DNA of 64,000 bases, taken from Peredibacter starrii. Its GTDB lineage: Bacteria > Bdellovibrionota > Bacteriovoracia > Bacteriovoracales > Bacteriovoracaceae. A program made the translations under genes and the position numbers. The stretch lies in NCBI RefSeq assembly GCF_034259205.1, contig NZ_CP139487.1:2170001-2234000 (forward strand). The letters are read 5' to 3'. A model generated the notes under the pieces. It made no database searches and had not been told where the DNA came from. It worked only from the letters and a program-made list of their open reading frames with translations. Shown here piece by piece: positions 39,291 to 42,521 of the stretch. How positions within the stretch are numbered: the first letter of the stretch is position 1; the number at the start of each line of letters is the position of its first letter.

Positions 39291-41597
39291 ATGTCACTTA
39301 AACCCTTGAATATTAAATCAAAATTATTAGATGCTCCGTCTGGATCGCCTCTATATTCTGTGTCGATTAAGGACGCAAAGCAGAAGAAAGTTGTGCTCGC
39401 CAACCCTAAAGCGACTCGTTCTTTAATTGCCCTGATGGACTTGGCCGCTGTAAATGGCGGGGCCGCTTGTCACTGGGGTGGACCTTCTGCCATGACAGAA
39501 ACTTGGACAGCTCTTCACGCTCTTATGTTCAAGAATAAAGACTGGTACAACCATTTCAACTTCGTAAATGATATCGGTCACGCTGAGAACGGTATTTACG
39601 CTCTTAGAACTGTACTTGGTTACGGTGACCTTACGATGGAAACACTTAAAGGTTTCCGCGCTATGGGCTCTAAGCTAACTGGTCACGGTGAATCTCACCT
39701 TTATCCAGAAGGCGTTCTTCTTTCTAACGGTCCTCTTGGTTCTGCACTACCACAAGCTCAAGGTCTAGCGGCCGGAGATAAAGTGGCGAAGAACAATCGT
39801 GTGACTGTTGTATCAGTATCGGATGGTGCTGCAATGGAAGGGGAAGCGAAAGAAGCTTTCACAGCGATTCCAGGACTAGCGAGCAAAGGAAAACTAAATC
39901 CATTCGTGATGCTTGTGTCTGATAACAACACAAAACTTGGTGGACGCATCGATAAAGATTCATTCTCTATGCAGCCAACTTTTGATTCTTTCAAAGATCT
40001 TGGTTGGGACGTAGTTAAAGTTGAAAATGGTCACGACCTGGAAGCTGTTTATCACACAATTGAAGAATCAATTGAGAAAGCAAAAAAAGATCCTTCGAAG
40101 CCAGTATGCGTATGGCTTAAAACAATTAAAGGTTATGGTGTGAAGTCGACGATGGATTCAGCGTCTGGCGGTCACGGTTTCCCTCTAAAAGCTCACGATG
40201 ATGGTATTCATGCTTTCATTAAAGAAATCTGGGGTGATGAAGCTGTTCCAGCTGAGTTCACAACATGGGCCAATGAACTAACTGTTAAACCAGAGAAGAA
40301 ATCTTCTGGTTCATCGACTCCAAAAGATAAAATTCAAGTTGGTGTAGCGAAGGCACTTTCTCGTGCTGCTAAAGAAGGCTACCCGGTTTTCTCGATCACA
40401 AGTGACCTTCAGGGTTCAACAGGTCTTAAGGCCTTTCACTCTGAATATCCTGATCACTATCTGGATGTGGGTGTTGCTGAATCGAACATGGTTTCGACTG
40501 CAATTGGTATGAGTAAGGTTGGTTTTATTCCTGTGGTTGATACTTTCGCCGCTTTCGGTGTAACGAAAGGTAATCTTCCACTTATCATGGCCTCTCTTTC
40601 TCAAGCTCCAGTGATTGCTGTATTTTCTCACACTGGTTTCCAGGATGCGGCCGACGGTGCTTCTCACCAATCACTAACTTATCTAAGTGCACTTGGAAGC
40701 ATTCCTCATCTAAATACTGTAAACGTTGGTTCAGCGAAAGAAGCTGAAGAGTATATGTTCAAAGCGATTCAAAAGATCGCAACTGATCGTCAGTGCGGTA
40801 AAGATGGTGAGTCTTATATCTTCTTCATTGGCCGTGAGAATTTCGCGCTGGAAATGAAAGAAGGTCTTAACTATGACCTCCACAAGCCACAAAAATTGGC
40901 CGAGGGAACGGATGCTGCAATTATCGTATCTGGTTCATTGGTTGCTAAAGGGATGGAGGCAGCTGAAAAATTAAGATTGCGCGGAATTGAAGCCACTGTC
41001 ATTAACCATAGTTTTGTGAATCACTCAGATTTTACGCAAATTGCTAATTGGATCGCTGAGAGTGGATCGAAAGTTGTAACAGTTGAAGATCACCAATTAA
41101 TCGGTGGTATGGGCTCACAATTGGTTCACCAACTTAAGCTTTTAGGTCTTGAGTTTGATGTTGAAACTTTAGCGATTAAGGGCGAATTTGGTCAGTCAGC
41201 TTACTCTGCTGATGAATTGTACACTAAGCACCATGTGGATTCTGGTGCTATTATCGAGGCGGTTGAAAGACTTGTTCATAACAAAGGAAGTTTTATGAAT
41301 CTCGATACGGATATCCTTAAATCAAAATGGAAGGATATTTCTCATGAGGCCAAAAGAAAGTGGGACTCAATTTCTGAAAAAGATCTGGAGAAAGTAAAAG
41401 GTAACGCTGTTGCCATGGTTTCTCTGATCCAGGAGAAATTTGGTATCTCAAAGGAAGACGCAACTAAGAAGGTTGAAGAGCTTCTAGCTAAGTATCCAAA
41501 AGACGAACTTAAAGCGAAAGTTGAAAAGACCGCTGAGAAAGTAATGGGTACAGCGAACACTTTGATGGATGAGATTAAAAGCAAACTAAAAAAATAA
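39291..41597 (+). CDS. Divergent transketolase with in-frame CsbD-like tail
   Basis: A 768-residue frame. Residues 1 to about 665 form a transketolase-type enzyme. The thiamine-diphosphate region is VSDGAAMEGEAKEAF (near 178), then NNTKLGGRIDKDSFSM, the pyrimidine domain (SITSDLQGSTG, GVAESNMVSTAIGMSK), and a C-terminal domain with VEDHQLIGGMGS. The N-terminal ACHWGGP and TGHGESHLYPEGV regions differ from common transketolases. From residue 669 the frame continues as a CsbD-like stress domain (KSKWKDISHEAKRKW, then KVKGN and IQEKFGISKEDATKKVEEL). There is no stop between them. GTGG precedes the ATG at 39291. It precedes cysK by 12 bases. Confidence 0.88.
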   Translation: MSLKPLNIKSKLLDAPSGSPLYSVSIKDAKQKKVVLANPKATRSLIALMDLAAVNGGAACHWGGPSAMTETWTALHALMFKNKDWYNHFNFVNDIGHAENGIYALRTVLGYGDLTMETLKGFRAMGSKLTGHGESHLYPEGVLLSNGPLGSALPQAQGLAAGDKVAKNNRVTVVSVSDGAAMEGEAKEAFTAIPGLASKGKLNPFVMLVSDNNTKLGGRIDKDSFSMQPTFDSFKDLGWDVVKVENGHDLEAVYHTIEESIEKAKKDPSKPVCVWLKTIKGYGVKSTMDSASGGHGFPLKAHDDGIHAFIKEIWGDEAVPAEFTTWANELTVKPEKKSSGSSTPKDKIQVGVAKALSRAAKEGYPVFSITSDLQGSTGLKAFHSEYPDHYLDVGVAESNMVSTAIGMSKVGFIPVVDTFAAFGVTKGNLPLIMASLSQAPVIAVFSHTGFQDAADGASHQSLTYLSALGSIPHLNTVNVGSAKEAEEYMFKAIQKIATDRQCGKDGESYIFFIGRENFALEMKEGLNYDLHKPQKLAEGTDAAIIVSGSLVAKGMEAAEKLRLRGIEATVINHSFVNHSDFTQIANWIAESGSKVVTVEDHQLIGGMGSQLVHQLKLLGLEFDVETLAIKGEFGQSAYSADELYTKHHVDSGAIIEAVERLVHNKGSFMNLDTDILKSKWKDISHEAKRKWDSISEKDLEKVKGNAVAMVSLIQEKFGISKEDATKKVEELLAKYPKDELKAKVEKTAEKVMGTANTLMDEIKSKLKK
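41295..41597 (+). other. Internal in-frame start for a CsbD-like protein
   Basis: Inside the transketolase frame, AAAGGA lies 6-7 bases before an ATG at 41295 that would yield a separate 100-residue CsbD-like protein, exactly at the domain border. Either a fusion, a free CsbD protein, or both may be made from this gene. Confidence 0.55.
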
Positions 41598-41609: not shown

Positions 41610-42521
41610 ATGAAAGGGCAATCCATTCTCGATGTTATCGGCAACACACCACACGTGAAGATCAACCGTCTCTACGGTCAGTCAGAAGTATGGATGAAGT
41701 TAGAACGTCAGAATCCTGGGGCCTCAATCAAGGACCGGATTGCTCTTTCAATGATCGCTGAAGCTGAAAAGCGTGGCGATTTGAAACCTGGTATGACTAT
41801 CATTGAGCCAACTTCTGGTAACACAGGTATTGGGCTTGCGATGGTGTGTGCGGTGAAGGGTTATAAGCTTATTCTCGTGATGCCTGAATCAATGTCGGTT
41901 GAGCGTAGAAAAGTCATGGCCGCTTATGGCGCAACTTTTGAACTCACGCCAAAAGAGAAAGGCATTAAGGGCTCTATTGCTCGCGCTCAGGAACTCTTCG
42001 GAACAACTCCTAATTCATGGATTCCGATGCAGTTTGAAAATAAAGATAATGTAAAAGTTCATGCTGAAACCACGGCCCAGGAAATTTTAAAAGATTTCCC
42101 GGATGGATTTGATTATTTAGTCACTGGTGTTGGTACTGGTGGACACATCACGGCCGTAGGTAAAGTTCTTAAAGAAAAATTTCCAAAATTAAAAGTCATT
42201 GCAGTTGAACCAGCGGATTCAGCGGTGTTGTCCGGTGGCCAACCTGGGCCCCATCCACTTCAGGGTATTGGAACAGGATTTGTTCCAAGCATTCTTGATC
42301 GTTCGGTGATTGATCAAGTGATTACGATCACAAAAGAAGAGGCCTTCGAGATGGCCCAAAGATCAGCGAAAGAAGAAGGTATTTTTGTTGGTATTTCTTC
42401 TGGTGCTTCATTAGCGGCCGTGAAGAAAGTATTGGCAAAATCTCCCGGTAAAGTTCTGACATTCTGTTATGACACCGGTGAGAGATATCTCTCTATCCCA
42501 GGATTATTCGAAACACCTTAA
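41610..42521 (+). CDS. cysK: Cysteine synthase A
   Basis: A 303-residue PLP enzyme (O-acetylserine sulfhydrylase). The PLP lysine lies in PGASIKDR (near residue 42). The phosphate-side loop is [11 protein letters not shown] (near 69), then [11 protein letters not shown] (near 175) and SSGASLAA near the end. It makes cysteine from O-acetylserine and sulfide in the cytoplasm. It sits 12 bases after the transketolase gene and 11 before the VOC gene, so the three form an operon. No CysE gene is seen. Cystathionine beta-synthase-like use cannot be fully excluded. Confidence 0.93.

Follow-up and report, generated by a model that had tools for sequence, protein, structure and literature searches.

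A single reading frame of Peredibacter starrii probably encodes two nested proteins, a transketolase fused to a CsbD-like tail and a free 100-residue CsbD-like protein that starts inside the same frame. From the comparison of related genomes, we estimate the probability of this reading at roughly 0.7. The frame lies on the forward strand of the analysed window, a stretch of 64,000 nucleotides, at positions 39291–41597. The tkt promoter and start codon would give rise to the transketolase with its CsbD-like, predicted helical tail. A promoter-like element in the 3′ end of the transketolase part, together with a Shine–Dalgarno sequence in the linker and an ATG, would give rise to the free protein of 100 residues. 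One clade appears to have re-split the gene by stop codons, and in one species the small gene appears to have been relocated along with the element. We infer that the element is a promoter and that both products are made.

The fused frame and its transketolase part

A frame check of the window showed a single open frame at 39291–41594 followed by TAA, comprising 768 codons. This confirmed the first-pass annotation, which had described a stop-free run from a transketolase into a CsbD-like domain; the orthologous fused frame recurred in 17 genomes of the genus. The order within the frame was transketolase (residues 1 to approximately 662; 39291–41276), a linker of approximately six codons (41277–41294) and the CsbD-like tail of 100 residues (residues 669–768). 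In unfused relatives, the end of the transketolase coincided with residue ~662 of the fused protein.

The three Pfam transketolase domains were present in the right order and above their cut-offs, at residues 46–328 (PF00456, 118 bits), 352–495 (PF02779, 88 bits) and 535–651 (PF02780, 63 bits). The fusion protein was also the sole PF00456 (Transketolase_N) match of the genome. Residues of the ThDP-binding and catalytic motifs (H61, H97, H132, SDG 177–179, NN 212–213, E397, D455 and H459) were present, as equated by eye with known transketolase residues from the motifs. The protein thus shares its three domains with bacterial transketolases and has the motif histidines, the NN pair and the glutamate in place. 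It differs from them by an SDG at the position of the GDG-like motif, by scores below the NCBIfam equivalog cut-offs (230 bits for NF004559, cut-off 488), by an N-terminal extension common to its relatives and by the CsbD-like tail, which was confined to one genus and one neighbour. The N-terminus had been annotated as divergent. While the first ~45 residues indeed lay outside Pfam Transketolase_N, family relatives had the same N-terminus and, by this comparison, it is a trait of this transketolase lineage rather than a peculiarity of the fusion.

The CsbD-like tail

Members of the CsbD/YjbJ family are small, common, stress-linked proteins. The tail resembled this family (PF05532, PRK10428; structures 1ryk and 1yww) in its predicted helical core of approximately 60 residues with W and G-N/K motifs. 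It differed in approximately 35 additional C-terminal residues and in being joined to a transketolase. The similarity covered residues 674–725 of the fusion; in the nested csbD-like gene (41295–41597, forward strand, 100 amino acids with its own ATG), the CsbD core corresponded to 41310–41465 and was followed by a C-terminal extension predicted to be helical. In a PDB search, a profile of 19 orthologous tails (A1) matched PA4738 (1yww, E = 2.1e-9) and YjbJ of E. coli (1ryk, E = 5.6e-6), with no other match up to E = 0.1. With PF05532, residues 658–768 alone scored 20.1 bits (E = 6e-4) and the full protein 9.2 bits, both below the gathering cut-off of 40 bits. The tail matched PRK10428 with E = 1.9e-7, yet remained under the PRK10428 cut-off. 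The CsbD similarity proposed earlier was therefore recovered in profile searches, though under the Pfam cut-off. Since the tail reached 20 bits against a cut-off of 40, we refer to it as CsbD-like; judged by its profile scores, it is a divergent CsbD relative and not a formal member of PF05532.

The AlphaFold model of the tail was all-helical, but the mean pLDDT values of this model (53.5) and of the fusion model (57.8) were both too poor for use. Tail and transketolase part had broadly similar dN values. A search of viral contigs found no relatives of the tail. In group B Streptococcus, CsbD is a stress factor, which ties a CsbD-family protein to stress survival; there, it is a free protein without an enzyme fusion (PMC10294668).

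The Peredibacter genome also contained two ordinary csbD paralogues. Sigma-54-like sites were seen by eye upstream of the ordinary csbD paralogues of the genus (for example, TTGGCATGACCTTTGCT in G011 and TGGCACCAAATATGC in the Peredibacter genome). They were located in L060 upstream of the csbD ATG (about position 1507) and in L001 and L059 on the reverse strand. This suggests that the ordinary paralogues may be under sigma-54 control.

Distribution of fused and split forms

The junction was readable in 24 of 26 genomes of the genus, most of the relatives being metagenome assemblies; the sequences of G001 and G007 stopped at contig edges. Seventeen of the 24 were fused. Fifteen of these had a full tail (including G023, with a contig broken inside tkt), and in G010 and G004 the first helix of the tail was deleted. 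In six genomes (G019, G015, G021, G016, G024 and G005), which formed one nested clade, the two parts were split by stop codons, and in G025 the csbD-like gene was on another contig than tkt; in these seven, the csbD-like gene was a free open reading frame. Across the family (129 genomes, 48 genera), the only fusion outside the genus was the one in G058, a genome of a neighbouring genus in which the tail is shortened. The search of relatives for the same fusion, which had been proposed with the first annotation, thus yielded 17 genomes of the genus and G058. A stop codon deleted by sequencing or assembly error is conceivable for any single genome. However, the same fused frame was common to 17 independent assemblies with diverged synonymous sites, which leaves this explanation next to no probability, and we consider it ruled out.

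In the junction alignment, indels in the linker were of whole codons only, and the linker was open in every fused genome. Fused genomes read AAA/AGA GGA AGT TTT ATG at the junction. The homologous Lys codon was a TAA stop in the split relatives G019 and G015, with G019 reading TAA ACA TAA GGA CCG TTT GTG in the same register. In other split genomes (for example, AAATAAGGA..ATGATG), the stop was inside the Shine–Dalgarno sequence. The alignment therefore identifies a stop codon at the Shine–Dalgarno sequence as the difference between the fused and the separate forms. In G034, from another genus (L028), an unrelated gene (MKSSRIFDVPGLNHLW...) followed tkt in frame behind TAAATAAGGA, a stop-in-Shine–Dalgarno layout like that of the split form.

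Trees built from the transketolase part placed G025 and the split genomes in one clade (100/99). G004 and G058 branched below all others, with moderate support for the deepest branches (80–94). Monophyly of the fused genomes was rejected (AU test, p = 0.01 with G058 included and p = 0.03 when it was left out). A second marker, rpoB, gave no independent tree, as most genomes of the genus were without a match. In G004 and G010, the linker, or what remains of it, extended as far as NLD and was followed by the deletion, which indicates that they were fused before the helix was lost. Since monophyly of the fused genomes was rejected and the split clade was nested inside them, the fusion would have come first. 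Most simply, the fusion appears to be the ancestral state of the genus, with the split form arising from it by a later fission. Stop codons between the two parts in relatives had initially been regarded as evidence against the fusion. Such stops were found, in one clade only, and this clade appears to be derived from fused ancestors.

Selection on the internal start and on the open linker

As annotated in the first pass, an internal ATG at 41295 was preceded by AAAGGA (41283–41288), with 6 nt between GGA and ATG. This internal Shine–Dalgarno sequence lies in the linker and includes a glycine codon of the fused frame. The codon was GGA or GGG in 13 of 13 cases (GGA in 12), which was unique among 57 conserved glycine columns. 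A scan for synonymous conservation gave three peaks, at the start of tkt, at the Shine–Dalgarno sequence and at residues 645–653. Two sequence features expected of an in-frame dual-product gene, a conserved internal start codon and a conserved Shine–Dalgarno sequence, were present. These patterns support selection on the internal start signals. The earlier suggestion that a free CsbD-like product could be made is backed by this apparent selection on the internal ribosome-binding site.

The open linker was compared with a neutral simulation in which the Shine–Dalgarno sequence was fixed and indels were excluded, using 14 full-length fused genes with a tree of approximately 12 substitutions per site at four-fold sites. 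Of 5000 runs, 3 ended with the linker open at all 14 tips; on average, 6.5 tips acquired a stop. This supports the view that selection, beyond chance, has kept the fused frame open. In G002, the whole tail was intact without the internal Shine–Dalgarno sequence or the upstream element, so the tail has been kept there as part of the enzyme.

A promoter-like element within the tkt 3′ coding sequence

A 32-bp promoter-like element was located on the forward strand in the 3′ coding region of tkt (41223–41254), a feature absent from the first-pass annotation. It reads ACTAAGCAC-N17-TATTAT, and a TGC precedes the −10-like hexamer, as in an extended −10. Across genomes, the frozen DNA was CTAAGCAC-N17-TATNNT; TAT was preceded by TGC in nearly all of them, and approximately 40 nt separated this DNA from the internal ATG downstream. 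The element was nearly frozen at synonymous sites. Across the 19 genomes that have the element, 359 columns were conserved and degenerate, and 12 of these were codon-invariant. Six of the 12 fell within codons 1–11, four within residues 642–653 (the element) and two elsewhere. The corresponding hypergeometric probability was 3.6e-7, or approximately 1e-4 after allowing for scan position. At the other end of the gene, tkt codons 3–11 (LKPLNIKSK; window 39297–39323), which hold six of the 12 invariant columns, were almost codon-invariant genus-wide. They are perhaps a translation-start or regulatory signal and lie beside a divergent rpmB-like gene (ribosomal protein L28; 38905–39126, minus strand).

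All 20 genomes in which the csbD-like start and its Shine–Dalgarno sequence were intact had the element (in G006 as CGAAGCAC), and AAGCAC was found in none of the four tkt copies without such an intact start and Shine–Dalgarno sequence (G002, G004, G010 and G025), counts that overstate the number of events because the sequences are related by descent and not independent. In G025, the coding sequence upstream of the moved csbD had decayed, and CTAAGCACCATGTGCATTCCTCTGTTATGAT remained with its 17-nt spacing. This non-coding element was 84–88% identical to the coding copies of relatives, and its flanks were 20–44% identical. At the element site, the tkt of G025 itself had 59% identity, with the protein sequence largely kept. 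By this comparison, the element follows csbD and not transketolase. The non-coding tkt 3′ remnant with the element was found in L054 (G025 contig C50) on the reverse strand at about 1800–1890, before a relocated csbD–cysK pair.

The element looks like an extended −10 promoter. A simple promoter scan called no promoter at the element, and its −35 part was a poor sigma-70 match. The pattern was not enriched in the Peredibacter genome (35 versus 52 in the control) or across the genomes of the genus, and the csbD paralogues were without it, which argues against a regulon of an alternative sigma factor, so none lends support to the promoter reading. An RNA hairpin was rejected as well, as the arms of the dyad lose their pairing across species (by eye).

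Proposed origin and alternative explanations

We lean towards a history in which the gene of an enzyme of central carbon metabolism took up, in frame, a formerly independent stress gene, whose promoter and ribosome-binding site persisted within the coding sequence of the enzyme. The locus would then provide the small protein both tethered to the enzyme and free, the latter under separate control, with a later fission in one clade and the promoter carried away in one species. The tail may let a stress-linked helical protein act on, or remain attached to, transketolase, with the free form made separately when needed. As a putatively helical, highly charged domain, it might stabilise transketolase or couple it to the stress response.

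Instead of a promoter, the 32-bp element could be a regulator binding site or an RNA signal on the tkt–csbD mRNA. We consider this the least improbable of the alternatives, albeit unlikely. The stretch between the hexamers was conserved in the non-coding copy too, AGCA-N15-TGCT forms a dyad, and the −35 part was poor. However, the spacing of 17 nt from AAGCAC to TGC-TATNNT, the distance of approximately 40 nt to the ATG and the Shine–Dalgarno sequence in between form a standard promoter layout, and the pairing of the dyad arms was not conserved among species (by eye).

Another alternative is that only the fusion matters, the tail being a C-terminal domain of transketolase and the internal ATG and Shine–Dalgarno sequence unused remnants of a former gene. 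In line with this, G002, G010, G004 and G058 lack an intact internal start, yet retain the tail or the second half of it. In the other 14 full-length fused genomes, by contrast, the Shine–Dalgarno codon and the upstream element resisted synonymous change, and a remnant would not stay unchanged at pairwise dS values that exceeded 1 in most pairs; we therefore regard this explanation as improbable. Slightly more doubtful still is the converse, that only the free protein matters and that the fusion arose as a neutral side effect of readthrough once a stop had been lost. It would explain the conserved internal signals and the persistence of a free csbD in the split clade and G025. It is at odds with a linker open in every full-length fused lineage (3 of 5000 runs under neutrality), with the intact tail of G002 despite its lost internal signals and with the shortened tails that remain in frame in G004, G010 and G058. 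Two nested products from one frame thus remain the preferred reading.

Relation to known systems

Among the papers searched, none described a transketolase–CsbD fusion. Bacteria are known to have in-frame genes with two starts, for example, those of the N-terminal proteoform pairs of Salmonella, which share with the present locus one frame, two starts and a common C-terminus (PMC11005335). Here, by contrast, the short form amounts to an entire domain, derived from a formerly independent gene that has a promoter-like element of its own, and in a related clade the two parts have come apart again. Two-start in-frame genes and CsbD stress factors are thus known, and the novelty would lie in the combination of fusion, nested signals and fission that can be traced across a genus. 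A fusion kept by selection suggests that CsbD/YjbJ proteins have a partner, physical or functional, in the pentose phosphate pathway, and it opens this link to testing. Gene fusion and fission can, moreover, be read at this locus with unusual ease, as stop status, start signals and a hidden regulatory element could be followed in approximately 25 related species, one of which (G025) uncouples the regulatory element from coding constraint.

The downstream region

A cysK-like gene (41610–42521, forward strand) was located directly downstream of the fusion and was found in most, not all, relatives. We ruled out that the element serves cysK, since the element and the Shine–Dalgarno sequence persisted in G008, G011, G014 and G024 without an intact cysK following. 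With cysK missing in some relatives, it is not the reason for keeping the internal signals. The gene after the tail varied: cysK followed directly or behind a terminator-like hairpin, or was absent (L026, L123, L125, L128 and L120). This variability indicates that, in several species, the transcription unit extends no further than the tail.
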